Below are positions 1,832 to 20,553 of a stretch of DNA of 21,972 nt, piece after piece. Source of the stretch: a virus; the IMG/VR virus record IMGVR_UViG_3300022538_000412, positions 1-21,972 of that record. The stretch is one strand, 5' to 3'. Position 1 is the stretch's first letter; every line of letters starts with the position of its first letter. A program made the translations under genes and the position numbers. Below the pieces are notes generated by a model, which saw only the letters and a list, made by a program, of their open reading frames with translations, ran no database searches and had not been told where the DNA came from.

Positions 1832-3139
1832 ATGAAAATTACTGAATTTTTTAATGATCAATATGTGGATTTTTCTTCATACGATAACCTACGTAAAATT
1901 GCATCATTAGTCGATGGACAGAAAAACGCTACTAGGAAGATTCTTTATACTATTTTAGAAAAGAATATAAATAATAAAATAAAAGTATCACAACTCGGTT
2001 CTAAAGTATCTGAATTTTCCGAATACCTACATGGTAATTTAGATGGTGTTATCGTTAATTTAGCACAGGATTTTTCCGGTACTAATAATATCCCATTACT
2101 TCAAAAGAAAGGAAATTTTGGTACAAGGTTTTCTCCAGAAGCATCTGCATCACGATATATTTATACATTTGGTACTTCGGAATTTTTTGAACTATTTAAG
2201 AAAGATGACATCCCAATATTAAATCACCAGTTTTTTGAAGGTGAGAAAATAGAACCAATGTTTTACGTGCCATCACTCCCTATGTTATTGATAAATGGTT
2301 CACAGGGTGTATCTTCTGGTTTTGCCCAAAAGATACTACCACGCAATCCAAGGAAATTAAAACAATATATTATCAAAATACTAGAAGGTAGAGATTGTAA
2401 ATTAAGTCTTAAACCATTCTATAGAGGCTTTAATGGAATAATTACGCCGGGTGAACATTCAAGCCAATGGTTAATTAAGGGTATTGTTAAACGTAAAGGG
2501 ATAAATAAAGTTCAAATTACAGAAGTACCAATTGGGTATGATTTGAAAGGATATATTAAAATACTAGATATTCTCGAGGATAAAAAAATTATACAAAGTT
2601 ACTGTGACAAATCTGAAGATGATAATTTTTTATTCGATGTTAATATTGCTAGTAAATTTCTTAAGGAATGGTCTGATGATGAATTACTAATTAAATTGAA
2701 ATTAATTAAGAAAGTTACTGAGAATTATACTGTTATGGATGATAGGAATAAAATTCAAGTTTATACATCTATTAAAGAGATACTTAATAAATATATTAAG
2801 ATAAAGTTAAAATACATGACTAAACGTAAAGAATATCAAATTAGAAAATTTGAAGATGATATTGATTCTAATTTTAGTAAATATACCTTTATTAAAATGA
2901 TTGTTAATGATGAAATAAAAGTAAATAAACGTAAAAAAATAGATATTATATCTGATCTAGATAAATTTGATAAAATCATCAAAAGAGATAATTCTTATGA
3001 TTATCTTCTCAATATGAATATTTTATCATTAACCGAAGAACAAATGTATAAATTAGAAACCTATATTAGAATAAAGAAAAAAAATTTAAATTCTCTAATT
3101 AAAAAATCTATTGAAGAATTATGGAAAGAAGAGATTTAA
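1832..3139 (+). CDS. Type II DNA topoisomerase medium subunit (T4 gp52-like)
   Basis: This 435-aa protein matches T4 gp52, the cleavage-rejoining (GyrA/ParC-like) subunit of the phage topoisomerase (442 aa in T4, so full length). Diagnostic blocks are LVDGQKNATRKILYT (residues 27-41, cf. IDGFKPVQRFV in T4), GNFGTR (94-99), ASASRYIYT (104-112) with Tyr109 as the predicted catalytic tyrosine, MLLINGSQGVSSGFAQKILP, and ITEVPIGYD near 230. The C-terminal part is a Lys-rich coiled-coil region as in gp52. It needs an ATPase partner (gp39/gp60-like), which is not in this window. T4-like phages use the enzyme for replication initiation and relief of supercoils. The ATG has only a weak ribosome site (GGATAA), and no clear promoter is seen in 1749-1831. 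Confidence 0.92.
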   Translation: MKITEFFNDQYVDFSSYDNLRKIASLVDGQKNATRKILYTILEKNINNKIKVSQLGSKVSEFSEYLHGNLDGVIVNLAQDFSGTNNIPLLQKKGNFGTRFSPEASASRYIYTFGTSEFFELFKKDDIPILNHQFFEGEKIEPMFYVPSLPMLLINGSQGVSSGFAQKILPRNPRKLKQYIIKILEGRDCKLSLKPFYRGFNGIITPGEHSSQWLIKGIVKRKGINKVQITEVPIGYDLKGYIKILDILEDKKIIQSYCDKSEDDNFLFDVNIASKFLKEWSDDELLIKLKLIKKVTENYTVMDDRNKIQVYTSIKEILNKYIKIKLKYMTKRKEYQIRKFEDDIDSNFSKYTFIKMIVNDEIKVNKRKKIDIISDLDKFDKIIKRDNSYDYLLNMNILSLTEEQMYKLETYIRIKKKNLNSLIKKSIEELWKEEI

Positions 3140-4883: not shown

Positions 4884-5150
4884 ATGAGTTTTAGAGATTT
4901 TTTAGAAGGTAGTTTAAATGAAGTTGAATATAAAAAATATATCATTATACCAGTACATGATTTGGAGTATTCTAAACAATCATTGAAAAGAAGCGGAATT
5001 GAATCTAAAATCATCCCAAACCAACCAAATGAGTTAGGGATAGAGATGAAAGATAAATCTAAACTTAAAAAATGGTTGATAAATGATGATGTTTATGAGA
5101 AAGAAGAAATTGAAGAAATTTTAAAAGATACTTTTAAGATGAGATTATAG
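4884..5150 (+). CDS. Putative capsid-targeted internal head protein
   Basis: This 88-aa protein begins MSFRDFLEGSLNE|VEYKKY, the clearest match here to a T4-type capsid-targeting leader with an LNE cleavage site. The mature part (about 75 aa) is paralogous to that of 4521-4832: a beta-like start (YIIIPVHDLE), a Lys-rich middle and an acidic helix EKEEIEEILKD. Small proteins of this build, with a leader then a compact charged domain, are common in T4-like phages, usually without assigned function. Ribosome site is AGGAGAAG (4870-4877). No membrane segment or catalytic motif is seen. Confidence 0.62.
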   Translation: MSFRDFLEGSLNEVEYKKYIIIPVHDLEYSKQSLKRSGIESKIIPNQPNELGIEMKDKSKLKKWLINDDVYEKEEIEEILKDTFKMRL

Positions 5151-5162
5151 AATAAGAAATTG

Positions 5163-5171
5163 TGCTAAAAT
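5163..5171 (+). promoter_or_regulatory. Extended -10 promoter (TGCTAAAAT)
   Basis: TG-C-TAAAAT lies 25 bases before the ATG at 5197, followed by the start of the conserved leader (AGAAATATCAAAAGCAACG). The second arm of the usual leader hairpin is missing. Confidence 0.5.
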
Positions 5172-5196
5172 AGAAATATCAAAAGCAACGATAAAA

Positions 5197-5577
5197 ATGA
5201 TAAAAGTCCCAGAAACAAAAGATTTAACAGAATTCAATCTAGAGAATTTCATTAGGCCAATAGTTGAAAAATATGTAGACAAACGTGGGTATATCTACAT
5301 ATTGTTCAATTCTAAATTTCCCGAATTTATCAAAGTTGGGCGCACCTCAAACTGCAAAAATAGGCTCATTGGATACAATAGCGATTCGCCATATCCAACA
5401 GCTAGGATGTTATATATAAGTAAATTATTTGAAGATGCCAATGAAATAGAGAGACGTGTTCTTGCTTTTATGTATGATTGTACTTCACCAACAACACTAA
5501 CTAGGGAATGGTTTATAATTAAACATAAAAAACTACTTATAGAAATTATAGAAAAGGCAGAGAAAGATAACGAATAA
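5197..5577 (+). CDS. GIY-YIG superfamily protein (T5orf172/MUG113-like)
   Basis: This 126-aa protein has GYIYILFN (31-38), IKVGRTSNCKNRL (45-57) with Arg56, NSDSPYP (61-67), an acidic ANEIERRV (81-88, candidate metal-binding Glu83 or Glu85) and a C-terminal TREWF (102-106). These are the conserved blocks of the T5orf172 branch of GIY-YIG nucleases, common in phages. There is no separate DNA-binding domain, so it is shorter than a free-standing GIY-YIG homing enzyme. It may cut DNA in phage-phage competition, repair or restriction; the substrate cannot be told. The ribosome site is weak although the promoter just upstream is good. Confidence 0.8.
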   Translation: MIKVPETKDLTEFNLENFIRPIVEKYVDKRGYIYILFNSKFPEFIKVGRTSNCKNRLIGYNSDSPYPTARMLYISKLFEDANEIERRVLAFMYDCTSPTTLTREWFIIKHKKLLIEIIEKAEKDNE

Positions 5578-5593
5578 TATTAATTAAAACTAT

Positions 5594-5601
5594 GTTATAA
5601 T
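5594..5601 (+). promoter_or_regulatory. Extended -10 promoter
   Basis: TG-T-TATAAT (TATAAT at 5596-5601) precedes the AAAAGGAAT ribosome site and the small gene at 5619 by a very short leader. The conserved leader hairpin is absent here. Confidence 0.65.
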
Positions 5602-5618
5602 ATATAAAAGGAATAAAT

Positions 5619-5720
5619 ATGGAAATAATACTACTACTGATGCTCTATATATTTTCTTATGTGGTTTGGTACGTTTCAAAATACTATACACTTTGGAGAT
5701 TAAAAAATGAAAAATTGTAA
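5619..5720 (+). CDS. 33-aa membrane peptide
   Basis: The ATG lies behind a good promoter and an AAAAGGAA ribosome site. The peptide MEIILLLMLYIFSYVVWYVS, then KYYTLWRLKNEKL, is one hydrophobic helix of about 18 residues followed by a short basic tail, typical of phage small inner-membrane proteins. Family unknown. The stop overlaps a second ATG (TAATG at 5718-5722). Confidence 0.5.
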   Translation: MEIILLLMLYIFSYVVWYVSKYYTLWRLKNEKL

Positions 5721-5800
5721 TGAAAACACAACAAGATAAAAAATACCGTAACTTACTATGTGACAAAGATTTATCTTTCAATCCAAGGATCTATAGATAA
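5720..5800 (+). CDS. Possible 26-aa peptide coupled to the membrane peptide
   Basis: The TAATG overlap with the upstream stop suggests translational reinitiation. The product MKTQQDKKYRNLLCDKDLSF...YR is short, basic and unrecognised. Evidence is only the overlap and the open frame. Confidence 0.25.
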   Translation: MKTQQDKKYRNLLCDKDLSFNPRIYR

Positions 5801-5817
5801 AAGTCAAGATTCAAATC

Positions 5818-5833
5818 TTTTTACTAGTAAAAA
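5818..5833. repeat. 16-bp perfect palindrome
   Basis: TTTTTACTAGTAAAAA is a perfect palindrome. It directly follows a small stem (AAGAT-TCAA-ATCTT, 5806-5819) with a T-run, so the pair may end transcription after 5800 or bind a dimeric regulator ahead of the promoter at 5868. Confidence 0.4.
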
Positions 5834-5867
5834 ATAAACTTAAATACTATTTATATACGTAAAATTA

Positions 5868-5900
5868 TGATATAATAGAATTATCAAAAGCAATATTGCT
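5868..5900 (+). promoter_or_regulatory. Extended -10 promoter with leader hairpin
   Basis: TG-A-TATAAT (TATAAT at 5871-5876) is followed by AGCAATATTGCT (5889-5900), a perfect self-complementary form of the conserved leader hairpin. The distal arm has changed (ATTGCT instead of ATGCT) while pairing is preserved. Confidence 0.75.
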
Positions 5901-6487: not shown

Positions 6488-6550
6488 ATGAAAACAATTA
6501 AACTTGCAATAATGCTTAACTTGATTAATAAAAGGAATAAAAATGAATAG
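6488..6550 (+). CDS. Possible 20-aa leader peptide
   Basis: The frame MKTIKLAIMLNLINKRNKNE overlaps the next gene's ATG (6543) by eight bases and carries that gene's AAAAGG ribosome site. It could couple translation of the PLD-like gene, or simply be the 5' leader, since it contains the GCAATAATGC hairpin sequence. Confidence 0.3.
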   Translation: MKTIKLAIMLNLINKRNKNE

Positions 6551-7043
6551 TGAAAATGAATATAAAATAAAATTAGAAAAACTTGACGAAGAAACTAGTG
6601 AAGAATTAATTTCAAATGGTACTAGAGACCACGAATTGGCTTTAATTTATCAGTTTTTAAAAACAGCTAAACGGAGTGTTAATATTATTTCTAATAGGTT
6701 ATTTTTTTATGACGATTTGTCAATATTAGAAGTCTTAAATATAGCGTTGAACAGAGGTGTAAAAATAAAAATCCTATTAGATGATTACCAAAACAACAAG
6801 ATAACCAATAACACTTTTTTAAGTAACTGCCTTGATAATGAGAATTGCGAAATCAAAACTTATGACAAACCTTTAAAAGCTCATATTATTACTAGAGATA
6901 ATAACGCATTTAGATATTGTGATAATCCTGGTAGCAATATAGCAGTGGCTAGTTTTTCACGTCCTAGTGTTGTTAAAAATGCGACAGAAAAACTGTTTGG
7001 TGATTTTTTTAATCAACAACCCGAATACAAGCCCATAGTGTAG
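6543..7043 (+). CDS. Phospholipase D-like fold protein (tentative)
   Basis: In this 166-aa protein, residues ~28-110 read like one PLD-type half-domain: ALIYQFLKTAKRSVNIISNR (a helix then strand), LEVLNIALNRGVKIKILLDD (the usual helix-GVxxxILLD strand), then CEIKTYDKPLKAHIITRDNNAFRY. In active PLD enzymes the last block would be HxKxxxxD; here it is H-I-I-T-R-D, so the catalytic Lys is missing. A degenerate, non-catalytic or binding version is likely. Such domains occur in bacterial immunity and phage proteins, with no firm role. The gene has an AAAAGG ribosome site and the promoter at 6447. Confidence 0.45.
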   Translation: MNSENEYKIKLEKLDEETSEELISNGTRDHELALIYQFLKTAKRSVNIISNRLFFYDDLSILEVLNIALNRGVKIKILLDDYQNNKITNNTFLSNCLDNENCEIKTYDKPLKAHIITRDNNAFRYCDNPGSNIAVASFSRPSVVKNATEKLFGDFFNQQPEYKPIV

Positions 7044-7394: not shown

Positions 7395-7979
7395 ATTACA
7401 GCAAAACCTGATGACTTTGTACTTGAGATAAGATGGGGTCAGCAGAACTGTGTAAACCAAATAAAAACAGTTCCTGTTGAGGAAAATCAAAGTGGCAGAG
7501 ATATTTTTGAGCAATGTGAACTTGAAATGAACCAACGAATTTCAAGAAAGAAACAGCAAGGGTATACAGAGGCAATTCCTAAAGTAGGTGCAAAAATAAC
7601 AAATGCACTTGGTTTACCAAAACCAATGCTTGCTAAAAAATGGGATGGAAAACCATTAAAAGGAACAATTTTTATTCAGCCTAAGTTAGATGGGAACAGG
7701 TGTCTAATTAAAATTGAAGATGGGGTTGTATTCGCATACACAAGAAATGGTAAAGAATTTACAACAATAAATCACATAACAGATGAATTCAAAGGAGTAA
7801 AGAATAGAACGATGATTATTGAAATAAAAGACATGCCAAGTGGACAAAAACTTAAACATATGATCGTGGATATAACATTTTCTGAAACGGGTGATCCTAT
7901 AGTAATATCTACTACATCAACAGAAAAGAAACAAGAAAATACAAATATTCCAAGTGAAATGAAGGATGGAGTATTTTAA
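7395..7979 (+). pseudogene. WGR / ATP-dependent ligase-like fragment
   Basis: The frame is open from 7395 (after TAA 7392-7394) to the stop at 7977-7979. The first ATG is at 7527, inside the WGR-like part, which begins upstream as PDDFVLEIRWGQQN. Then come GYTEAIP, PMLAKKWD and FIQPKLDGNRCLIK. KLDGNR matches nucleotidyltransferase motif I (KxDGxR) of ATP-dependent DNA ligases, with the Lys as nucleophile. Motifs III-V are not recognisable: the frame ends about 70 residues later in an unrelated-looking tail. Upstream, another frame reads VHCYFGKLQQ, which would join PDDF after a one-base shift at an A-run near 7410. I infer a ligase-like gene that has lost its start by frameshift and its catalytic core by truncation. 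A shortened product from 7527 (150 aa) is possible. Confidence 0.55.
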
Positions 7980-7997: not shown

Positions 7998-8249
7998 ATG
8001 AGTTTCGAATTAATAATAAAATGTTCAAAAGATATCTACAATATACATATTGATTTTTCTGATGGTACTTCAATGGTAACATCTAGCACAAAAAATCCAA
8101 AGGAAAAAAAACATTTAACAAGTAATAATTATCTAAATACTGATGGGAATTTTGATGATATACGACAAGAAATAATTAAACCACCAAAGATTAAAGAACT
8201 CAATAGAAGTGTTAAAATAGCACCCGAACTACAAAATATTGATATATAA
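7998..8249 (+). CDS. 83-aa hypothetical protein upstream of the actin homologue
   Basis: I place the start at ATG 7998, behind an AAGGAA site, rather than the TTG at 7980 that abuts the previous stop. The product MSFELIIKCSKDIYNIHIDF... has a beta-rich N-terminal half and a polar basic C-terminal half with KPPKIKELNRSVKIAPELQN. It could be an adaptor for the actin-like protein that follows, as small ParR-type proteins accompany ParM, but ParR usually lies downstream and no ribbon-helix-helix signature is evident. Confidence 0.5.
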   Translation: MSFELIIKCSKDIYNIHIDFSDGTSMVTSSTKNPKEKKHLTSNNYLNTDGNFDDIRQEIIKPPKIKELNRSVKIAPELQNIDI

Positions 8250-8271
8250 TTTGTAATTTATTAACAAATTA
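8247..8271. repeat. Inverted repeat in front of the actin-like gene
   Basis: TAATTTGT (8247-8254) is complementary to ACAAATTA (8264-8271), with a 9-base spacer. It overlaps the upstream stop and is followed by a T-run at ~8286. It may be a weak terminator or an operator/centromere-like element for the actin gene. Confidence 0.35.
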
Positions 8272-8304
8272 TATTATATAATAAAATTTTTAAATAGGGG
8301 ACTT

Positions 8305-9270
8305 ATGAAAAAAACAGTACTAGGGATAGATATTGGGTATGGAGACGTAAAAATTACGGTCGGAACTTCTGAAGGACGAATTGATAAGCAATTTAAATTC
8401 ACTAGTACTATAGGAATTACTAAAAGAAATGAACATATTAAAGATGCTCGTATTTACGACTACATGGAACATTCATATTATGTGGGCGAAAATGCATTAC
8501 ACCTACCATCTGAAAATCTAATTGATATTAATGATTATAAGAATTTAGAATATTATGCTCCGCTATTTTTATTTGAAGCAATTAAAATGATTGGATTTAA
8601 ACCTGATATTATTGTTAGTGGTTTATCAAAAGCACAGATTGAAAATTCAGGACACTTTAAAGAAAGACTAAAAAACTTTACTGTTAATGACGAACAATTT
8701 ATATTCGATGAAGTTTATATTTTACCACAAGGTGCAGGATCAAAAATATGTATTGATAAATATGGAAATAATTTCCCGCATCTTCAAGAAGAATTTATAG
8801 ACGAAACAACATTCGTTGGATGTGATATTGGCTTCAATACCCTTGATATGTTTTTAGTTACTAATGGCAAGACATCACCGAATTTATTCGAGGGTATTGA
8901 ACGTGAAGGAATAATGAAAATTGCAACTGAGGTAGCTAAGAAAGTTAGGGAACTCTATGGAAGACAAATTACATTACATGAAGCAAAGGAAATAATTGAT
9001 AGTGGAATCTATAAATTACGTGGTGAGAAACATGCATTCAAAGAATATATTGATGAAGTTAAAAAAACATATTTAAAAGATTTACTTGCATTAATTGAAT
9101 CTAAATATGGAAATATTCTTGATAAGTGTGACTTTATTAGTCTTAGTGGTGGTGGAAGTACTATATTTAAAACTACAATTGATGGATTCTTGAGAGTACC
9201 AAAAACTAAACACGAATACTATAATGCCATCGGTTTTTTTCTGTATGGTTTAACTATATTAAATAAATAG
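8305..9270 (+). CDS. ParM-like actin homologue
   Basis: This 321-aa protein has the actin/Hsp70 nucleotide-binding signature: phosphate-1 GIDIGYGDVK (7-16), phosphate-2 CDIGFNTLD (173-181) and an adenosine motif SLSGGGS (279-285). Length and motif spacing fit ParM/Alp plasmid- and phage-type actins (about 320-350 aa), not MreB or FtsA. ParM filaments push replicated plasmids apart; phage versions may position or segregate viral DNA. Ribosome site AGGGGA (8295-8300). A 58-aa gene follows at 9281. No clear ParR or direct-repeat centromere is visible, so the partner is unknown. The gene suggests that the element can persist extrachromosomally, which is inference. Confidence 0.85.
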   Translation: MKKTVLGIDIGYGDVKITVGTSEGRIDKQFKFTSTIGITKRNEHIKDARIYDYMEHSYYVGENALHLPSENLIDINDYKNLEYYAPLFLFEAIKMIGFKPDIIVSGLSKAQIENSGHFKERLKNFTVNDEQFIFDEVYILPQGAGSKICIDKYGNNFPHLQEEFIDETTFVGCDIGFNTLDMFLVTNGKTSPNLFEGIEREGIMKIATEVAKKVRELYGRQITLHEAKEIIDSGIYKLRGEKHAFKEYIDEVKKTYLKDLLALIESKYGNILDKCDFISLSGGGSTIFKTTIDGFLRVPKTKHEYYNAIGFFLYGLTILNK

Positions 9271-9280
9271 GAGAAATAAA

Positions 9281-9457
9281 ATGAATGGTAAAAAGGCAAA
9301 AATGTTGAGAAAACAAGCAGAAAAAATTTCAGCGGGACTACCATTAAAATCATATAAGATAAATAATGATACTACTATTGTTTTAGATAAATGTACTCGT
9401 AAGTATTACAAAATACTTAAACAAGAATATAAAACAAAAAAAAATAATCTATTATAA
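9281..9457 (+). CDS. 58-aa basic phage protein
   Basis: It starts 10 bases after the actin-like gene behind AGGAGA. The product MNGKKAKMLRKQAEKISAGL..., with DKCTRKYYKILKQEY near the C-terminus, is strongly basic. Its build (N-terminal KxAKxLRKxAE, then a late CTRxxYxxLK block) resembles a small uncharacterised protein I recall from various phages. It might bind DNA or the actin-like protein. Position and spacing suggest cotranscription with the actin gene. Confidence 0.6.
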   Translation: MNGKKAKMLRKQAEKISAGLPLKSYKINNDTTIVLDKCTRKYYKILKQEYKTKKNNLL

Positions 9458-9459
9458 AG

Positions 9460-9999
9460 ATGAAAACAGTAGAAATAAGCAATAATAATTTAAAAACTAT
9501 AGTTCTGCAACAAATTGATGAGCATGGTAATAATGTAGACCTTAATCATTTGGATACTAGTAAAGTAACTGATATGTATGAATTATTTAATAGTTCTAAA
9601 TTCAATGGTGACATTAGTAAATGGAATGTCAGTAGAGTAACTAATATGTGTGGGATGTTTTCTTATTGTACTAAGTTCAATGGCGACATTAGTAAATGGG
9701 ATGTTAGTAAAGTAAGAAATATGAATGATATGTTTGCTTATTGTACTAAATTTAATCAGGATATTAGCTCCTGGAATGTTGGTAAAGTAAGAGATATTAG
9801 TAGGATGTTTGCTTATTGTACTAAATTTAATCAGGATATTATTTCCTGGAATGTTAGTAGCGTAACTGATATGGGATATATGTTTGTATATGATAATTTT
9901 AAATATGTAGATATTCTTAAAGAATACTTCAATGGTTCTATTCCAAAAGGAAAGATTATTGATATTCTCAAAGAAAAATATCCAGAGAATTTTATTTGA
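9460..9999 (+). CDS. DUF285 (BspA-like) repeat protein
   Basis: This 179-aa protein has an N-cap (MKTVEISNNNLKTIVLQQID, then NNVDLNHLDTSKVTDM), about four repeats of ~25 aa (MFxYCTKFNxDISSWNVxxVxxM) and a C-cap ending GKIIDILKEKYPENFI. Both caps recur in the 277-aa paralogue at 18037. No signal peptide or lipobox is present, unlike Mycoplasma DUF285 lipoproteins, so a cytoplasmic or virion location is more likely than a cell-surface one. The ATG is two bases after the previous stop, with no strong ribosome site, suggesting coupling. The repeat solenoid implies protein binding; the partner is unknown. Confidence 0.85.
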   Translation: MKTVEISNNNLKTIVLQQIDEHGNNVDLNHLDTSKVTDMYELFNSSKFNGDISKWNVSRVTNMCGMFSYCTKFNGDISKWDVSKVRNMNDMFAYCTKFNQDISSWNVGKVRDISRMFAYCTKFNQDIISWNVSSVTDMGYMFVYDNFKYVDILKEYFNGSIPKGKIIDILKEKYPENFI

Positions 10000-10025
10000 A
10001 TAAACTATTTATATACATAAAACTA

Positions 10026-10034
10026 TGTTATAAT
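10026..10034 (+). promoter_or_regulatory. Extended -10 promoter at the left edge of the host-like block
   Basis: TG-T-TATAAT (TATAAT at 10029-10034) follows AAACTATTTATATACATAAAAC, an upstream sequence shared with the promoter at 5868. The conserved hairpin is absent; after ~10040 the sequence becomes less AT-rich. Confidence 0.6.
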
Positions 10035-10086
10035 ATATCTATTAAAAATGTAACTGCAATTAAATTTAAAGGAAAAAGTTTTAACA

Positions 10087-10323
10087 ATGCACGAATTTAT
10101 TGCAAAGATTATGCTGAAAACAAGCCAAGAATTATTATATTATCCGAATTACTTAAAATTCGACAAAAGCGGTCAAGCATCTTGCCCGTATTGTAGTGCC
10201 ATAAACTTTAATGAGTGGCAATGGCTAAAAAAATTAAAGGTGTTTTACCTTTATAAATGGGCGTTGCCCATTTTAACAGTTGGTAAAAATTATCAACAAA
10301 ATTGTAGGAGTATGAAAAAATGA
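10087..10323 (+). CDS. Doubtful 78-aa ORF, host-like composition
   Basis: An open frame MHEFIAKIMLKTSQELLYYP... with one CPYC pair (residues ~33-36) and a hydrophobic stretch VFYLYKWALPILTV. It has a possible AAAGGAAAAAG site and overlaps the next ATG by ATGA. A perfect hairpin (10255-10273) lies inside it, which argues for a transcription end rather than a coding region there. It may be a fragment of a bacterial gene. No family recognised. Confidence 0.3.
   Translation: MHEFIAKIMLKTSQELLYYPNYLKFDKSGQASCPYCSAINFNEWQWLKKLKVFYLYKWALPILTVGKNYQQNCRSMKK
10255..10273. terminator. 8-bp GC-containing hairpin
   Basis: AAATGGGC (10255-10262) pairs perfectly with GCCCATTT (10266-10273) across a three-base loop, followed by only a short T stretch. 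Possible intrinsic terminator. Confidence 0.35.
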
Positions 10324-10559
10324 AGTTTAAACAATTAACAGTTTTTGGGGTTTCCGCAGGAAAAGACGGACAAAACACGCTGAGATTTGAGGATGGTGAT
10401 ATTTTAAGTGGTCACGAACAAGAACACACTGAATGGGAATTTACATATACCTCAGCCAGCACAGGTTATAAAAACAAAGCACGTTTTTATAAAAATAATA
10501 TATCAGGGGTTGCTTATAATAACGGCGACAGCGTTAATCCGCCTGGAACTGATGCGTAA
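10320..10559 (+). CDS. 79-aa hypothetical protein, host-like composition
   Basis: The frame MKFKQLTVFGVSAGKDGQNT... is polar, beta-rich (EWEFTYTSASTGYKNKARFY) and ends GDSVNPPGTDA. It is visibly less AT-rich than the phage genes. A TAGGAG site (10304-10309) lies 10 bases before the ATG and even closer to a three-codon frame (MKK) overlapping it. I recognise no family. Bases 10560-10729 after it show no convincing gene on either strand. Confidence 0.45.
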   Translation: MKFKQLTVFGVSAGKDGQNTLRFEDGDILSGHEQEHTEWEFTYTSASTGYKNKARFYKNNISGVAYNNGDSVNPPGTDA

Positions 10560-10729
10560 TTCCAGATAACAGAACGCCCATAACCAAGATGAATGCTGAT
10601 TAAAAATATGCAAATAATAATCAGTTAAATTTGCCAAAATTAAGCTCAATAACAACCTAATAGACCATACAAATCTAGTGTTATTGCCAGATTTAGCGGT
10701 AAGTTTTTGTTGCATTTTTACGCCTTTGA

Positions 10730-10806
10730 TGGTGCCCTCGATGCGATTTGAACGCATGACCTGCCGCTTAGGAGGCGGCTGCTCTATCCAGCTGAGCTAC
10801 GAAGGC
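10730..10806 (-). tRNA. tRNA-Arg (anticodon CCU)
   Basis: Read on the minus strand: acceptor GCCTTCG pairs with CGAGGGC, D-arm GCTC/GAGC, anticodon stem GCCGC/GCGGC with loop CTCCTAA (anticodon CCU, decoding AGG), T-arm ATGCG/CGCAT with loop TTCAAAT, and CCA encoded at the 3' end (10730-10732). All arms pair well, so it should be functional. Encoded CCA and composition fit a gammaproteobacterial gene. It points opposite to nearly all genes of the window. Confidence 0.95.
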
Positions 10807-11075
10807 AATGTGATTATTATCCACGATATGACTATCCATTGAAATATTTGCATTATTTTTATCCGTTTTAGTGGAACAAGCCTTGCCCGTTCTTTTGTTT
10901 TTAGAAACGATCAAGGCTCGCTTTGGATAGGTGTTTTGTATGACTTGATATTTTACAAATCTATGTCATTTAAATCACAGTGAGACCTTTGCGTAATCAT
11001 CCCTATTTTATGCAAAGGTCTATCTAATAAAGAAATATGTTTTTTAAAAATCATATAAATGTGTGAGGATAAAAT
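10807..11075. other. Gene-free stretch with two inverted repeats
   Basis: No convincing coding frame on either strand. It holds an inverted repeat AGCCTTG...CAAGGCT (10879-10918) with an inner CGTT/AACG pairing, and a second at 10983-11021. The last ~20 bases supply the GAGGAT ribosome site for the next gene. Confidence 0.6.
10983..11021. repeat. Inverted repeat, possible IS-end remnant
   Basis: AGACCTTTGC (10983-10992) and GCAAAGGTCT (11012-11021) are perfect inverted copies 19 bases apart. The sequence GAGACCTTTGC resembles the terminal repeats of some IS5-family elements (from memory, unverified), so this may be a collapsed IS or a very short non-autonomous element. It could also act as a terminator, but there is no T-run. 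Confidence 0.4.
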
Positions 11076-11866: not shown

Positions 11867-11943
11867 GTCACGTTAGCTCCAACTGGTAGAGCAGTGGATT
11901 CCAAATCCAATGGATCGAGGTTCGAATCCTTGACGTGGCGCCA
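11867..11943 (+). tRNA. tRNA-Trp (anticodon CCA)
   Basis: Acceptor GTCACGT/ACGTGGC, D-arm GCTC/GAGC, anticodon stem GTGGA/TCCAA (one terminal mismatch) with loop TTCCAAA (anticodon CCA), variable TGGAT, T-arm CGAGG/CCTTG with loop TTCGAAT, discriminator G and encoded CCA at 11941-11943. It folds as a normal 77-nt tRNA and decodes UGG. Its final CCA overlaps the start of a tRNA-Met remnant. Confidence 0.93.
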
Positions 11944-12005: not shown

Positions 12006-12788
12006 CTAAAAAAAAAGAGTTACTACGTATATAGAATTACTAATGCATATTCGTATAAGCATTATTATGGATATAGGAGTTGTAATTGTTCTCCCTATGA
12101 AAATCTAGGTAAACATTATTTTAGCTCTAGTAGAGATAAAGAATTCAAAGAAGATCAGAAGCAAAATCCTGAAAATTATAAATATAAAATAATTAGAACA
12201 TTTGACAACAGTAAAGATGCTCTGGAACTTGAAATAAAATTACATAAAAAATTCAATGTTGGAGTAAATGAATCATTTTATAATAAAGCAAAACAGACAA
12301 GTACTGAATTCTCAACACATGGAACAAAACATACCAAAGAAACTAGAGACAAATTATCAGGTAAAATACCTTGGAATAAAGGCATAGGATTAACAGATAA
12401 ACATAAGAAAAAGATTTCTATAGCTGGTAAAGGTAGAAAACAAACTAAAGAAACAAAGAAAAAGATATCCAAATCTATGAAAGACAGAGAACCATGGAAT
12501 AAAGGTAGAACATATTCTGATGTAATTGGATACAAATGTTCTAAAAATGCAACAGCGAAGAAAATAAACATCTATAATGTAGAGGATGAACTAATGTTTG
12601 AGTGCCATGGTAATTTTAAAAAGATTTGTATAGATAATGATTTACCGTTTGCATCACTTAAAACATCATATCAAAACAATAACATAAAATTGTTTGGAAG
12701 CGAAAAAGGATATTCAAAAAAATTAATTGAAAAATATAAAAATTTTTCTGGATGGTATGCTAGAATTAAATTTACAAATAAAAGTTAA
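12006..12788 (+). CDS. GIY-YIG homing endonuclease with NUMOD3 repeats, no start codon
   Basis: The frame is open from 12006 (after TAA 12003-12005) to 12788, about 260 codons. It opens LKKKSYYVYRITN...KHYYGYRSC, the GIY-YIG core (YVY and YYG), followed by ENLGKHYFSSSRDKEF and ALELEIKLHKKFN with the conserved acidic residue. Then come NUMOD3-type DNA-binding segments (SGKIPWNKG; ISIAGKGRKQTKETKKKIS; EPWNKGRTYS) and a C-terminal NUMOD1-like part. This is the architecture of T4 Seg/I-TevI-like enzymes. No ATG, GTG or TTG lies in frame before the catalytic core: CTA stands where the initiator would be, next to a run of A. Either a rare start is used or the 5' end is damaged. ATG 12477 would give only a DNA-binding fragment. 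It is inserted between the tRNAs and dnaK. Confidence 0.8.
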   Translation, partial: LKKKSYYVYRITNAYSYKHYYGYRSCNCSPYENLGKHYFSSSRDKEFKEDQKQNPENYKYKIIRTFDNSKDALELEIKLHKKFNVGVNESFYNKAKQTSTEFSTHGTKHTKETRDKLSGKIPWNKGIGLTDKHKKKISIAGKGRKQTKETKKKISKSMKDREPWNKGRTYSDVIGYKCSKNATAKKINIYNVEDELMFECHGNFKKICIDNDLPFASLKTSYQNNNIKLFGSEKGYSKKLIEKYKNFSGWYARIKFTNKS

Positions 12789-12862: not shown

Positions 12863-14770
12863 ATGTCAAAGATTATCGGTATTGACTTAGGCACAACCAA
12901 TTCATGCGTGGCCATTATGGATGGCGGTAACGTTAAAATTATTGAAAATGGAGAGGGTGATCGCACTACCCCATCTATTATCGCTTATCCAAAAGACTCT
13001 GAAGAGGTTTTGGTTGGTCAGCCAGCAAAACGTCAAGCGGTTACCAATCCTGAAAATACGCTATACGCAATTAAGCGTTTAATTGGTCGTCGTTTTGATG
13101 AGGATGCTGTACAAAAAGACATTAATCTTGTGCCTTATAAAATTGTCAAAGCTGACAATGGTGATGCTTGGGTTGAGGTTAAAGGCAAAAAAATGGCCGC
13201 GCCTGAAATTTCAGCAAAAGTCATTGGTAAAATGAAAAAAACTGCTGAAGATTATTTAGGCGAAGAAGTTACTGAGGCAGTTATCACAGTGCCTGCTTAC
13301 TTTAACGACTCACAACGCCAAGCAACTAAAGATGCAGGCAAAATTGCAGGTCTTAATGTTAAGCGCATTATCAATGAGCCAACCGCAGCAGCATTGGCTT
13401 ATGGTGTTGACAAAGTTAAAGGTGATAAAGTTGTCGCTGTCTATGACTTAGGTGGTGGTACATTTGACGTATCTATCATTGAAATGGAAGACATTGATGG
13501 TGAAAAACATTTTGAAGTACTCTCTACCAATGGGGATACTTTCCTAGGTGGTGAAGATTTTGATCAACGTATTATTGGCTATTTAGTTGATGAGTTCAAA
13601 AAAGACCAAGGTGTTGATTTAACCAATGACCCTATGGCACTACAGCGCTTAAAAGAAGCCGCTGAAAAAGCTAAGATTGAGTTGTCTTCTTCTGAGCAAA
13701 CCGAAGTCAACTTACCTTACGTGACTGCAGATGCTTCAGGTCCTAAACATCTTAATATTAAAATCACTCGTGCCAAGTTAGAATCATTGGTTGAGAATCT
13801 ACTCAAACGCACTATTGAGCCATGCAAAATCGCACTTAAAGATGCAAATTTATCTGCAAGTGATATTGATGAAGTCATCTTAGTAGGTGGTCAAACACGC
13901 ATGCCTAAAGTCACGAAAGTAGTACAAGACTTTTTTGGTAAAGAGCCTAAAAAAGATGTCAACCCTGACGAGGCAGTAGCAATGGGTGCTGCCATCCAAG
14001 CAGGTGTATTAGGTGGTGATGTTAAAGATGTCTTGTTACTAGACGTCACGCCATTATCTCTAGGCATTGAAACCATGGGCGGTGTTATGACCAAACTAAT
14101 TGAGAAAAATACAACCATCCCTACCAATGCAAGCCAAATTTTTTCAACCGCAGCTGACAATCAATCTGCAGTCACTGTGCATGTATTGCAAGGTGAGCGT
14201 GATATGGCTAGTGCCAATAAATCATTAGGTCAATTCAATCTTGATGGCATTCCAAATGCACCTAAAGGTCAGCCTCAAGTCGAAGTAACATTTGACATTA
14301 ATTCTGATGGCATCTTGGATGTATCTGCCAAAGACAAAAATACTGGTAAAAAGCAATCAATCACCATTAAAGCCTCATCTGGTTTAAGTGATGAAGAGGT
14401 TGAGAAAATGATTAAAGACGCTGAAGCACATGCTGATGAGGATAAGAAGTTCCAAGAATTAGTCACTAGTAAAAACATGGCAGATTCCTTAATACACTCA
14501 ACCAAGCAAACGCTAGAAGAGCTAAAAAATGAAGTTTCTGATGATGAAAAATCAGCGATTGAAACGGTCATTACCGAACTTGAAAAAGCCATTAAAGGCG
14601 ATGACAAAGAAGCCATTGATGCCAAGGTTCAAAGTTTAAGTGAAAAAGCACAACCGTTGGCTGAAAAAGCACAAGCCAAAGCAGGTACCGAAAACGCCTC
14701 GCAAGAAAAACCAAACACTGATGATGACGTGCTTGATGCTGATTTTGAAGAGGTTAAAGACGACAAATAA
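12863..14770 (+). CDS. dnaK: Chaperone DnaK (Hsp70)
   Basis: This 635-aa full-length Hsp70 opens [20 protein letters not shown] (phosphate-1). It has [11 protein letters not shown] (~171), [10 protein letters not shown] (~195), VGGQTRMP (~340), the interdomain linker VLLLD (390-394), the beta substrate-binding domain to ~505, a helical lid, and the C-terminal [16 protein letters not shown] (EEVKD-type tail). It binds exposed hydrophobic peptides in an ATP cycle driven by DnaJ and GrpE; no grpE is in the window. The sequence is of gammaproteobacterial type, with a base composition clearly above its AT-rich neighbours, so it looks acquired or host-derived. Its promoter and leader are of the element's own type. 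A terminator separates it from dnaJ. Confidence 0.98.
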
Positions 14771-14791
14771 AAGGTTAAAAACCTAACAACT

Positions 14792-14831
14792 AAAACCTTC
14801 CCTAAGAGACAAAGCTTGAGGAGGGTTTTTT
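14792..14831 (+). terminator. Intrinsic terminator between dnaK and dnaJ
   Basis: AAAACCTTCC (14792-14801) pairs with GGAGGGTTTT (14820-14829) with one G-U pair, and the stem runs into TTTTTT. The loop is 18 bases. It may reduce rather than abolish read-through, as no promoter is seen before dnaJ. Confidence 0.8.
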
Positions 14832-14846
14832 AATAATAAGGCAACT

Positions 14847-15941
14847 ATGTCACAAAGAGATTATTACGAAGTACTGGGTGTTGCAAAAAATTCAGATGCC
14901 AAACAAATTAAAAAAGCTTACAAGCATTTGGCAATGAAACACCATCCTGATCGGGTTAAAGACGACAAGGCATCAGCTGAAAAAAAATTCAAAGAAATTC
15001 AAAAAGCTTATGCCATTTTATCCGATGCCCCAAAACGCCAAGCTTACGACCAATTTGGTCATGCAGGTGTGAACGGCAATGCTGGTGCCGCTGGTGGCAA
15101 TCCATTCAATGGTGGCTTTGGCGATATTTTTGGCGATATTTTTGGCGGTGGCTCTCAACAATCCAACAATCGTGGCTCAGATTTGCGTTATGATTTAGAA
15201 ATTGATTTAAAAGAAGCGGCACAAGGCACTACCGTTAAAGTTCGTATTCCGAAAAATGAAACTTGCGACACCTGCTCAGGCACTGGCGCAAAACCCGGCA
15301 CCAATGTTAAAACCTGCTCAACCTGTGGCGGTGCAGGACAAGTACAAATACAACAAAGATTTTTTGCCGTACAACGCCCTTGTGGCACTTGCTCTGGTAC
15401 AGGTCAAAAAATTGAATCGTCTTGTGGCACTTGCCGTGGACAAGGCGTGGTGCGCAAGCAAAAAACCCTATCAGTCAAAATCCCTGCAGGCGTAGACACA
15501 GGCAATCGCATTCGTTTGAATGGCGAAGGCGAGGCAGGTGCTAGAGGTGGTCCTACTGGTGATTTATACGTGCAAGTTCACGTTAGAAAGCACGCCATTT
15601 TTGAACGTGAAGACAACGATTTGTATTGTGAAGTGCCTATTGACTTTGCAACTGCAGTGCTGGGTGGTTCAATTGAGGTGCCCACACTTGAGAATAAATT
15701 AAAAATTAAAGTCCCAGCAGGCACTCAAACTGGAAAACTATTTCGCTTGCGTGGCAAAGGCATTGCCCATCTTCAGCGTGGTGGCTCTGGCGATTTAATC
15801 TGTCAAGTTAAGATTGAAACGCCTGTCAATCTTAACAAAAAACAACAAGGCTTATTGCAAGAGTTCTCCAGTTCATGTGGCAAAAAGCATTACCCTGAGT
15901 CAGGTTCTTTCTTTGATAAGATGAGGTCATTTTTTGAATAA
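14847..15941 (+). CDS. dnaJ: Co-chaperone DnaJ (Hsp40)
   Basis: This 364-aa type I J-protein has a J-domain at 1-70 with HPD at 33-35, a Gly/Phe-rich linker (~75-115, with [14 protein letters not shown]), and a zinc domain with four CxxCxGxG motifs ([32 protein letters not shown]; ~140-205). Substrate-binding beta domains and a dimerising tail follow. It delivers clients to DnaK and stimulates its ATPase. AAGG (14837-14840) is the ribosome site. All key residues are present. Its last codons contain a 16-base string that recurs at 16654-16669, and part of its zinc-domain sequence recurs at 19381-19421. Confidence 0.98.
15904..15919 (+). repeat. 16-bp direct repeat, copy 1 (end of dnaJ)
   Basis: GTTCTTTCTTTGATAA within the last codons of dnaJ (GSFFDKM) is identical to 16654-16669. 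The two copies bracket the endonuclease/mazF/mazE segment. Confidence 0.7.
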
Positions 15942-16021: not shown

Positions 16022-16315
16022 CTATTTTGGAACAGTAAAACATGATATTTTTAGTCTATTTTTAGCACTATTTGACATTAGTTTCTTTGTTGCATTAATA
16101 TGTTTTTTACCATACATAGGATTATTTTCATTAGATTTAGATTCTGACATTTTTCTTTTTGTTTCATCTGAAAATATTCTACCTTTACCAGCAATAGATA
16201 ATTTTAATTTTGTCTTTTCAGACATATTTAATTTACTAACAGACATTTTTCTTTTTTGATTCTTTTGAATGTTTTCTACCTTCTGTTGGTTCAAAATCCA
16301 ACCAAACAATATCAC
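16022..16315 (-). pseudogene. NUMOD3 fragment of a homing endonuclease
   Basis: On the minus strand the frame encodes NUMOD3-type DNA-binding repeats: QKRKMSVSKLNMSEKTKLKL, SIAGKGRIFSDETKRKMSES and NENNPMYGKKH. No GIY-YIG or HNH catalytic part precedes them; the upstream end is mazF sequence read in another frame. The repeats resemble those of the endonuclease at 12006-12788 (SIAGKGR is shared). It is therefore a detached DNA-binding tail, not an active enzyme. Confidence 0.7.
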
Positions 16316-16340
16316 CTCTATTTGGAATATAATTACTCAT
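16236..16340 (-). pseudogene. Truncated MazF-type toxin
   Basis: The ATG (16340-16338) overlaps the stop of mazE, the usual MazEF arrangement. The peptide MSNYIPNRGDIVWLDFEPTE is a clear MazF/PemK N-terminus (GDIVWxDFEPxxG). It then runs into RKHSKESKKKNVC and a stop. KHSKES already looks like NUMOD3 linker, and a one-base change in the following A-run would let it read on into the NUMOD3 repeats (KRKMSVSK). The RNase core (RPALVLS and beyond) is missing, so no toxin activity is expected. Confidence 0.8.
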
Positions 16341-16578
16341 ATTCACTGTTTAACAGGTTAGGTGCTAAATCAGCATGTGCATTACTTACTGTTATATCCG
16401 ACAATAACTCCTGTTCGGTGAATTTTCTATTGGTTGGCTTGACAGCGCTAAAACCATTTTCATTGATGGTTATGGTTAATAAATCACCTTTTTTAAGGTT
16501 TGGGATAGTTCTTAATGCGCCAGACATTCTAAGTGCTAATCCGTTACCCCATTTTTGTACTCGGCTTTCTATTTGCAT
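16333..16578 (-). CDS. mazE: MazE-type antitoxin (AbrB fold)
   Basis: This 81-aa protein opens MQIESRVQKWGNGLALRMSG, the AbrB/MazE swapped-hairpin DNA-binding motif (xxKWGNSxAxRIP). It then has LKKGDLLTITINENGFSAV and an acidic, flexible C-terminus of the kind that blocks MazF. Ribosome site is AAAGGAG on the minus strand. It appears intact while the adjoining toxin gene is cut off after about 20 codons, so it is an orphan antitoxin. It may still autoregulate or neutralise a host MazF. Composition is closer to the dnaKJ block than to phage genes. Confidence 0.88.
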   Translation of the reverse strand: MQIESRVQKWGNGLALRMSGALRTIPNLKKGDLLTITINENGFSAVKPTNRKFTEQELLSDITVSNAHADLAPNLLNSEYE

Positions 16579-18036: not shown

Positions 18037-18870
18037 ATGGTAAAAGTAACAAATAAAAATATAAAGAGGATAATTGAAGACCTTATTGATAATTATGGTA
18101 ATAATGTTAATCTTAATCATCTTGATGTTAGTAGAGTAACTGATATGAGTGGTATGTTTTCTCATTGTACTAAATTCAATGGTGACATTAGTAAATGGGA
18201 TGTTGGTAATGTAACTGATATGAGTTATATGTTTGCTTCTTGTTCTAAGTTCAATGGCGACATTAGTAAATGGAATACTAATAAAGTATCTGATATGAGT
18301 TGTATGTTTGCTCATTGTACTAAATTTAATTCGGATATTAGTTCTTGGAATGTCAGTAATGTAACTAATATGAATAGGCTGTTTTCTCATTGTACTAATT
18401 TTAATTTGGATATTATTTCCTGGAATGTCAGTAAGGTAACTAATATGAATGGATTATTTGCTTATTGTACTAAATTTAATTCGGATATTAGTTCTTGGAA
18501 TGTCAGTAAAGTAAGAAATATGAATGATATGTTTGCTCGTTGTACTAAATTTAATTCGGATATTAGTTCCTGGGATGTCAGTAAAGTAAGAGATATGAGA
18601 AGTATGTTTTCTCATTCAGATTTTAATGGTGACATTAGCTCCTGGGATGTTAGTAAAGTAAGAGATATGAATAGGATGTTTTATAAAGCTAAGATTTTTA
18701 ATTCGGACATTAGTAAATGGAATGTCAGTAATGTAACTGATATGGATTATATGTTTGTATATGATAATTTTGAACGTGTAGATATTCTTAAAGAATACTT
18801 CAATGATTCTAATCAAAAAGGAAAGATTATTGATATTCTCAAAGATAAATATCCAGAGGAATTTAAATAA
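18037..18870 (+). CDS. DUF285 (BspA-like) repeat protein, long form
   Basis: This 277-aa protein has an N-cap (MVKVTNKNIKRIIEDLIDNY), nine or so repeats of ~25 aa with the signature MFxHCTKFNxDISSWxVSxVxDM, and a C-cap with VDILKEYFND and GKIIDILKDKYPEEFK. The repeats are nearly identical at DNA level (75-bp period), inviting unequal recombination; the 9460 paralogue has fewer. It has no signal peptide, lipobox or membrane segment. It is probably a binding scaffold; target unknown. Ribosome site AAAAGGAAAAA, own promoter and leader hairpin. Some repeats diverge (for example a shortened SHSDFNGDISSWDV), so the array is not a recent uniform expansion. Confidence 0.88.
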   Translation: MVKVTNKNIKRIIEDLIDNYGNNVNLNHLDVSRVTDMSGMFSHCTKFNGDISKWDVGNVTDMSYMFASCSKFNGDISKWNTNKVSDMSCMFAHCTKFNSDISSWNVSNVTNMNRLFSHCTNFNLDIISWNVSKVTNMNGLFAYCTKFNSDISSWNVSKVRNMNDMFARCTKFNSDISSWDVSKVRDMRSMFSHSDFNGDISSWDVSKVRDMNRMFYKAKIFNSDISKWNVSNVTDMDYMFVYDNFERVDILKEYFNDSNQKGKIIDILKDKYPEEFK

Positions 18871-19848: not shown

Positions 19849-20553
19849 ATGTTTAATAAAGACATTGTAGATGTACTAACTCAAATTAATGGAGTTACAA
19901 ACTCTATTATTTTAAAATACCCTCAAACAGTTGCAGTTTCAGATGCGCAAGATGTTATGGTATTGATTGATATTTCAGATCTTGATTCTGATAAATTTCC
20001 AGATATAGGTTTAAAAGATTCATTGGGTGATTTACTAAATTTATTTAAATTATTCCCAGATGGGCGAAATGTATCAATTGAAGGTAATACTATCAATATT
20101 TCTAATGGTAATATAAGTTCATCTTATATTGTAGATAATATTGCTTTAATGGATGCCTATGATAAAGATGCTAATCAATTTGATAAGACTGAAGGCGCAC
20201 CAAATGTAGCAACATTTAATTTAACTATTAATGACATTAAAAATATTAAATCTGCTACAGGTGTATTTAAAGATTTATCAGAGGTATTATTTACTTCAAA
20301 AGATGGCGATATAAAAGTTAGTCTTGGTGCTACAAATAAATTTAATGCTAAAAGTAATACATATAGCGTAAATAAAAATGCAAAGACAACAAAAGAATTT
20401 GAAGTTAAAATCCCAGTTGAGAATTTTAAAACAATACCAGTATCAGATTACACAGTCAATATAAAATATAATTCAAATAAAGATTCTTATAGAATTTTTA
20501 TGCAGAATAACTCTCTGGCTAAATTAAAAATTATTATGAGTATGAAAGTATAG
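19849..20553 (+). CDS. Sliding clamp (T4 gp45-like)
   Basis: This 234-aa protein is close to T4 gp45 (228 aa) in length. It shows the same two-fold clamp layout: an N-terminal helix then GVTNSIILKYPQTVAVSDAQ (cf. INSGIMLKSGQFIMTRA in gp45), ISDLDSDKFPDIGLKDSLGDLLNLFKL (cf. ISDVIDFDVAIYDLNGFLGI), a middle linker with ATFNLTINDIKNI, and FEVKIPVENFKTIPVSDYTVNIKY (cf. FNFIINMANMKMQPGNYKLLLW). Trimeric gp45 tethers the phage polymerase and, with gp33/gp55, also activates T4 late promoters. That fits the TATAAATA boxes seen in the window. Ribosome site AAGGAA (19836-19841). Confidence 0.85.
   Translation: MFNKDIVDVLTQINGVTNSIILKYPQTVAVSDAQDVMVLIDISDLDSDKFPDIGLKDSLGDLLNLFKLFPDGRNVSIEGNTINISNGNISSSYIVDNIALMDAYDKDANQFDKTEGAPNVATFNLTINDIKNIKSATGVFKDLSEVLFTSKDGDIKVSLGATNKFNAKSNTYSVNKNAKTTKEFEVKIPVENFKTIPVSDYTVNIKYNSNKDSYRIFMQNNSLAKLKIIMSMKV

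Follow-up and report, generated by a model that had tools for sequence, protein, structure and literature searches.

Gene content of the locus

The window, that is, the whole stretch of DNA analyzed here (virus record IMGVR_UViG_3300022538_000412, 21,972 bases), carries a gene for an actin-like ATPase with two small genes, A and B, upstream and with genes for a topoisomerase II subunit and a sliding clamp on either side (Table 1). The topoisomerase subunit was taken to be of the gp52 type. The first-pass annotation had placed an actin-like segregation gene at 8247-9457; these positions enclose more than the actin gene, whose open reading frame lies inside them. The A frame is open upstream into ORF 7527-7979, which encodes a truncated ATP-dependent DNA ligase fragment in frame with A (Pfam DNA_ligase_A_M, positions 1-55 of 204; phrog_114). 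Further upstream, the product of 6543-7043 is PLD-like by Pfam (PLDc_2, E 1.3e-6) and shows weak DrmC matches in PADLOC (E 4e-5).

Table 1. Positions and assignments of the main features of the window
Feature	Position	Strand	Description	Basis
Topoisomerase II subunit gene	1832..3139	+	Left anchor of shared gene order	Pfam, PHROGs, comparison with pv27
Adaptor candidate A	7812..7979	+	55 aa from internal ATG; MIIEIKDMPSG..IPSEMKDGVF	Paralog of B
Adaptor candidate B	7998..8249	+	83 aa; N-terminal segment MSFELIIKCSKDIYNIHIDFSDG, linker, C-terminal tail ..RSVKIAPELQNIDI	Directly upstream of actin
B-actin gap	8250..8304	+	TATAAT-like box and imperfect palindrome (8259-8296); candidate promoter/operator; not conserved	Sequence
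Actin-like ATPase gene	8305..9270	+	321 aa	ALP_N and MreB-like_C; phrog_691
Sliding clamp gene, gp45 type	19849..20553	+	Right anchor of shared gene order	PHROGs, comparison with pv27

The inverted repeat in the B-actin gap has arms at 8259-8280 and 8275-8296 that are 86% complementary. It was the only one in the window under the criteria used, and none arose in 8 shuffles of the window or in 400 of the local 126 bases; a second test with looser criteria gave a p of 0.035. The repeat noticed beside the actin in the first-pass annotation is real by the local shuffles, though not conserved. Across relatives, the looser test gave p < 0.05 in 3 of 21 B-actin gaps, with no sequence common to the three by eye, and because only these gaps reached this level the palindrome was not regarded as a conserved element. 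A role as a centromere was rejected on the same count and on the alignment of the gaps. No centromere-like (parC) repeat array was found beside the cassette in the loci of four relatives, and between 7000 and 11000 of the window there was no repeat array apart from coding repeats. A TATAAT-like box was present in 19 of 21 gaps, a count made without a chance control in DNA that is AT-rich.

Genes of a DUF285-type repeat family, whose name comes from Mycoplasma, lie at 1-892, 9460-9999 and 18037-18870 (Pfam E 2.2e-72 for the gene at 9460; the others by similarity). tRNA-Arg(CCT) is encoded at 10730-10806 (minus strand) and tRNA-Trp(CCA) at 11867-11943 (plus strand), and the GC content over 10000-11070 is 0.34.

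Downstream of the actin, the 9281-9457 product matched phrog_36059, a phage family without known function (E 1.1e-6), and gave one weak match in the phage collection (E 0.04), in a phage outside the actin list. With no conserved link, it was rejected as an actin partner. The actin had been described as lying between two unknown small genes; the gene at 7998-8249 proved to encode a conserved partner and the one at 9281-9457 did not. As baits for the DNA pull-down proposed with that description, the 7998 product is supported and the 9281 product is not, while the 7812-7979 product was missing from the proposed pair.

Between the actin and the clamp, 12863-15941 holds full-length dnaK and dnaJ genes at a GC content of 0.41, compared with about 0.26 in the surrounding DNA, and looks as if it had been taken from a bacterium. 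These two genes are absent between actin and clamp in Vibrio phage pv27. The stretch is identical in contig L004 (16,526 of 16,526 bases compared), and an assembly error shared by the two is possible. ORFs flanking it at 12477-12788 (plus strand) and 16022-16315 (minus strand) resemble homing-endonuclease fragments by eye and may be mobile boundaries. Elsewhere, a GIY-YIG-like ORF (by eye) lies between B and actin in contig L176 (532-1671), and phiKT1024 (L027) has an annotated homing-endonuclease gene just past the actin (5057-5878).

The actin-like protein and its genomic setting

Judged by its sequence and predicted fold, the 8305-9270 product is a full-length member of the ParM-like actins. 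It scored over cut-off for two Pfam families, MreB-like_C (E 5.4e-11) and ALP_N (E 4e-10), and phrog_691, annotated as 'partition protein', was matched over residues 1-319 (E 5.9e-40). When the protein of the window was aligned with 30 relatives (31 rows), D9, G11, K16, Q142-G143, D174-I175-G176, T179, D181 and G282-G284 were invariant. These residues, which we take to be the actin nucleotide motifs, together with the Pfam and PHROG matches bear out the initial description of a ParM-type protein with all nucleotide motifs. The AF2 model, built from an alignment of 31 sequences, had a pLDDT of 91.4 and a pTM of 0.88. Foldseek ranked archaeal Ta0583 first among solved folds (E 4.3e-18), followed by pCBH ParM and pSK41 ParM; CorM and Alp7A were also among the closest, below Ta0583 and pCBH ParM. 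Pentatricopeptide-type proteins, the sole matches in a phmmer search against PDB sequences, were taken as spurious. The protein is predicted to bind ATP and probably to form filaments.

In the fold comparison the model scored nearly as high against Hsp70-type ATPases (Z about 23) as against Ta0583 (Z 27), as would fit an actin-fold ATPase without a cytoskeleton, in an enzymatic or regulatory role and with A and B as its regulators or clients. We consider this quite unlikely, given that the Pfam and PHROG classes are actin-like or partition and that the nearest folds are Ta0583, CorM, ParM and Alp7A.

Relatives of the actin were found by tblastn in 38 of 50,697 phage records: 6 Vibrio records near pv27 and Va1 (74-75% identity), 15 Campylobacter (51-52%), 10 Rhizobium (44%), 1 Acinetobacter (42%), 3 other Vibrio (37-39%), and 1 Cobetia and 2 Bacillus phage G records (about 22%). 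The gene is thus no oddity of this contig, whereas its absence from relatives, in a clearly lytic-only genome, had been named beforehand as counting against a segregation or positioning role. Relatives in Campylobacter, Vibrio and Rhizobium phages are annotated as 'MreB-like ATPase' or 'partition protein'. Beyond phages, relatives were found among plasmid ParM/StbA proteins (13 records, 23-30% identity) and at 21 loci in prokaryote genomes (22-30%). In a tree of 25 actin rows, the 20 phage rows formed one separate group with 99/99 support; the plasmid, Cobetia and phage G rows were long-branched or unplaced. When six proteins of the window were compared with those of pv27, the actin was the most conserved (75% identity), followed by the clamp (65%), a 126-aa protein at 5197 (64%), the topoisomerase subunit (62%), a 220-aa protein (47%) and B (34%), which points to strong constraint on the actin sequence.

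The window shares with pv27 the order topoisomerase, actin, clamp, and the genes in between differ. In pv27 the topoisomerase II subunit gene is followed by a dozen genes (including those for a PhoH-like protein and a protease), the actin, eight small genes and the clamp. Of 13 actin-bearing records, 11 matched the T4-type head protein Gp23, 8 of them over cut-off. Together with the phage-type topoisomerase II subunit and clamp in the window, these results uphold the T4-like setting recognized in the first-pass annotation. Its statement that T4-like phages do not normally need plasmid segregation was too strong, since a whole lineage with T4-type genes has the actin.

The first-pass annotation had also raised a phage-plasmid lifestyle, to be checked by looking for integrase, repA or toxin-antitoxin genes, and this lifestyle was not supported. 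Phage_integrase matched 0 of 13 actin-bearing records and 14 of 14 control genomes; PF01051 (Rep_3) matched 0 of 13 and 2 of 14 controls; and the annotation of pv27, a complete record in which most genes are hypothetical, lists no integrase, RepA or repressor. A MazE-like ORF in the window (16333-16578, minus strand) fell under the Pfam cut-off (E 0.088). Plasmid-type partition of a phage-plasmid prophage would agree with the relatedness of the plasmid ParM/StbA proteins and with the mention of ParM-like genes in excerpts of papers on Bacillus plasmid prophages. Because Phage_integrase and Rep_3 are missing in the 13 actin-bearing records, a phage-plasmid was judged unlikely, and plasmid-type partition is very improbable: Gp23 was matched in most of these records, no ParR-like gene was recognized, and the 20 phage rows stand apart in the tree.

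The A/B family and its linkage to the actin

Sequence comparison identifies A and B as paralogs in an unnamed family. Members have about 55-116 residues; a short segment at the N-terminus and a conserved C-terminus are separated by a linker whose length varies. A typical A ends in [IV]PxEMx[ND]xE[FL] and a typical B in V[KNS][VI]AxE[LM]QN[LFM][DE][FI], with exceptions. By hhalign the two tails are homologs (29 columns, E 1.6e-8), and in L059 and L066 single proteins combine an A-like start with a B-like tail. B-type N-termini occur directly upstream of the actin in Rhizobium TM2_3B and in Vibrio Va2, 150E35-1 and 1.031.O, the B stop overlapping the actin start in the latter three. Acinetobacter Ab1-TPeters has one 2.4 kb before the actin (HMM E 4.6e-6, outside the training set). 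In the phage records read, A and B are annotated as 'hypothetical protein' or not at all. No known DNA-binding domain was recognized in A or B with Pfam or PHROGs, the best match being phrog_12674, of function not known (E 0.0037). As to a ParR-type ribbon-helix-helix, A and B gave no informative Pfam or PHROG family, and the N-terminus was modeled as two strands with a block pLDDT of just 56-67.

Sixty loci with the actin (the window, L006 and L034-L091) were assembled for counting; L033 was dropped as having the same sequence as the window. Loci with a strong actin and 600 bp or more of upstream sequence were eligible (46), and the 14 with under 600 bp upstream or a weak actin were left out (L037, L054, L055, L057, L064, L068, L077, L081, L084, L086, L088, L089, L090, L091). 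Of the 46 eligible viral loci, 39 (30 of 34 clusters at 95%) have A or B in the roughly 2.2 kb preceding the actin, with B in 37 and A in 31; these counts rest on the ORF calls and HMMs of this analysis and on viral contigs that are often fragments, and about eight of the 46 contigs had their own A or B in the training of the HMMs used for counting. The seven loci without A or B were L046, which has only 885 bp upstream, the fragment contigs L073, L074 and L076, and L078, L079 and L085, which are Campylobacter-type phages with an unlinked adaptor. In Cobetia Carin-5 and Bacillus phage G (one phage G record), the 9 kb read around the actin likewise gave no A or B.

A reverse search with B alone as query gave 38 loci, 32 on contigs known from the actin search and 6 new. 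An actin match was present in all 38, with its open frame starting 253-1875 bp past the B start in 37 and as an actin fragment upstream of B in L186. When four adaptors were searched against the 50,697 phage records (tblastn, E <= 1), matches were obtained in actin-bearing groups only (15 Campylobacter, 6 and 3 Vibrio, and 10 Rhizobium records); 13 of the Campylobacter records are the same as the actin records and two are other segments of phage IBB_35. An adaptor was found in this way in 34 of 38 actin records or their phage and in one more by HMM, and none was found in the stretches read of the other three (phage G twice, Cobetia). As each adaptor query found its own group only, this search was counted as insensitive, and A or B without actin elsewhere is possible.

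Profiles of the last 11 residues of the tails were trained without the rows of pv27, G001, G003 or CPt10. In pv27 (331 ORFs), G001 (315 ORFs; the last 11 residues of its B are identical to training rows) and G003 (208 ORFs), the A profile ranked A first and the B profile ranked B first. In Campylobacter phage CPt10 (210 ORFs), which has no adaptor beside the actin, both profiles were topped by ORF 126789-127085 (98 aa), with scores of 12.4 versus -4.5 for the next ORF by the B profile and 2.8 versus -0.6 by the A profile. This ORF lies about 60 kb from the actin and starts with MIIEIKDFPLN, an A-type N-terminus, which is absent from the search profile. No convincing match was obtained in Rhizobium phage TM2_3B, whose adaptor tip has diverged. 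By genetic linkage and by co-occurrence, A and B track the actin in the sequences compared.

Possible targets of the tails and known systems

The reading we favor, held with moderate confidence, is that the phage encodes a segrosome-like module, made of the actin and its own adaptors, that serves lytic growth. A and B would be dedicated adaptors in which a variable, flexible linker joins a conserved N-terminal segment to a conserved C-terminal tail. The tail would most likely dock on the actin, by analogy with the ParR tail on ParM. The site for cargo would be the N-terminal half or the tip itself, and the likeliest cargo would be DNA of the phage or its replication complex. A and B would in this way connect the actin with the cargo, much as AlpA does for AlpC and CGP3 DNA, and the filament would thereby hold or move replicating phage DNA in the cell. 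In a model of a read-through B-actin protein (L036), the B linker block had a pLDDT of 23-29, residues 81-110 (which include the B tail) 76, 73 and 64, and the junction less than 50; these block averages from one model are weakly consistent with docking of the tail on the actin. That many large T4-like phages have an actin-like gene along with one or two of these small partners suggests that such viruses, lytic as they appear, make a cytoskeleton of their own with which to hold or move DNA in the infected cell. Intracellular positioning remains, we infer, the best class of explanation.

A different target for the tails is the clamp. T4 gp43, gp55 and gp33 bind gp45 by short hydrophobic-acidic C-termini, in gp55 after a divergent linker (excerpt of PMC2988020). 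The T4 tips read were ..ASLDFLFG (gp43) and ..PSLDFLYEAND (gp55), and ..QNLDF of B and ..DLEF of A have a similar look. The tips of A and B would then bind the sliding clamp gp45 and not actin, and the proteins would either tether something to the clamps on phage DNA, perhaps actin by way of the N-terminal segment, or be clamp ligands merely sharing an operon. It would agree with this that in pv27 the actin is followed by the clamp gene at a distance of 2.6 kb. Because PF02916 missed every clamp, phrog_223 was the sole profile informative on gp45. It found a clamp in 5 of 13 records (G001, G002, G003, CPt10, pv27), all with strict or near-strict tips, and detected none in Rhizobium TM2_3B, Va2, 150E35-1, 1.031.O and Ab1-TPeters, in which the tips have diverged. 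Among the 11 records with a known tail, a gp45-type clamp was detected in 5 of 6 with strict or near-strict tips and in 0 of 5 with diverged tips, and therefore a clamp target fits as well as an actin target. However, no clamp was detected in the sixth record, G004, although its tip is near-strict, and clamp absence is read from one profile. DNA polymerases of the same genomes (three read) carry other tips, ..SLDDW in pv27, ..TLEEW in CPt10 and ..YDEW in G003; moreover, the conserved A/B tail is longer than a clamp motif, and the part before the tip is kept, by eye, in phages without a phrog_223 match. We regard binding of the clamp in place of actin as possible but less likely than docking on the actin; the observations would fit either target for the tails, or one of each.

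Ends resembling the polymerase tips were seen on other proteins. In L073 (2643-3731), L074 (1-780) and L076 (2944-3882), actin loci without A or B, the upstream gene is glycosyltransferase-like by eye and ends in ..LTDEW or ..VNEEW; pv27 ORF 146112-147245 ends in ..SDLDDW and the pv27 methyltransferase in ..PNDEW. Ends of the form ..DEW, ..EEW or ..DDW are possibly a clamp-tip class of this clade.

The two targets could also be combined, which we hold to be unlikely. A and B would then have two binding parts, a tail segment for docking on actin, present in all lineages, and a C-terminal tip for the clamp, strict mainly where there is a gp45-type clamp, and would couple the actin filament to sliding clamps on replicating DNA. 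Segregation could then proceed without a centromere, because the moving clamp would be the handle.

Among the matches listed in a search of mainly open-access literature, no paper dealt with A and B or with this actin of T4-like phages. The new point appears to be the A/B partner family beside an actin of known type. If the segrosome-like reading is true, actin-based organization of lytic infection would be widespread and testable in culturable phages; the groups concerned are T4-like phages of Vibrio and Campylobacter, many environmental viruses, and other large phages of Rhizobium and Vibrio. The A/B family, short, so far 'hypothetical' and directly testable, would provide a handle. To our knowledge, phage cytoskeletons are known mainly as PhuZ tubulins and one prophage actin.

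The phage system, with its ParM-like actin, may work like the ParM or AlpC segrosome. With ParMRC (type II; ParM, ParR and parC, including the ParM/StbA of Campylobacterota plasmids) it shares an actin-like fold and a small co-encoded partner with a variable region. It differs in that the partner in phages is encoded upstream of the actin, often by two paralogs in tandem, and has a short N-terminal segment, whereas three plasmid relatives have a small ParR-like gene just downstream that overlaps parM and looks ribbon-helix-helix-like by eye; parC-like repeats were also not found in four phage loci. With an adaptor of different appearance, no centromere detected and nothing that points to a plasmid state, it is not established as a ParMRC system. 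Corynebacterium prophage CGP3 encodes the actin AlpC and the adaptor AlpA, which links CGP3 DNA to AlpC and binds alpS sites in its own promoter, with a role in viral DNA replication (excerpts of PMC4446434, PMC5539076). CGP3 differs in being a prophage with alpS sites, whereas no repeat array was found in the phage loci here, and is alike in pairing a phage-borne actin with a co-encoded adaptor. PhuZ of jumbo phages is a tubulin and not an actin, but, like the filament proposed here, it is a phage cytoskeletal filament that serves infection (excerpts of PMC4244570, PMC7950403).
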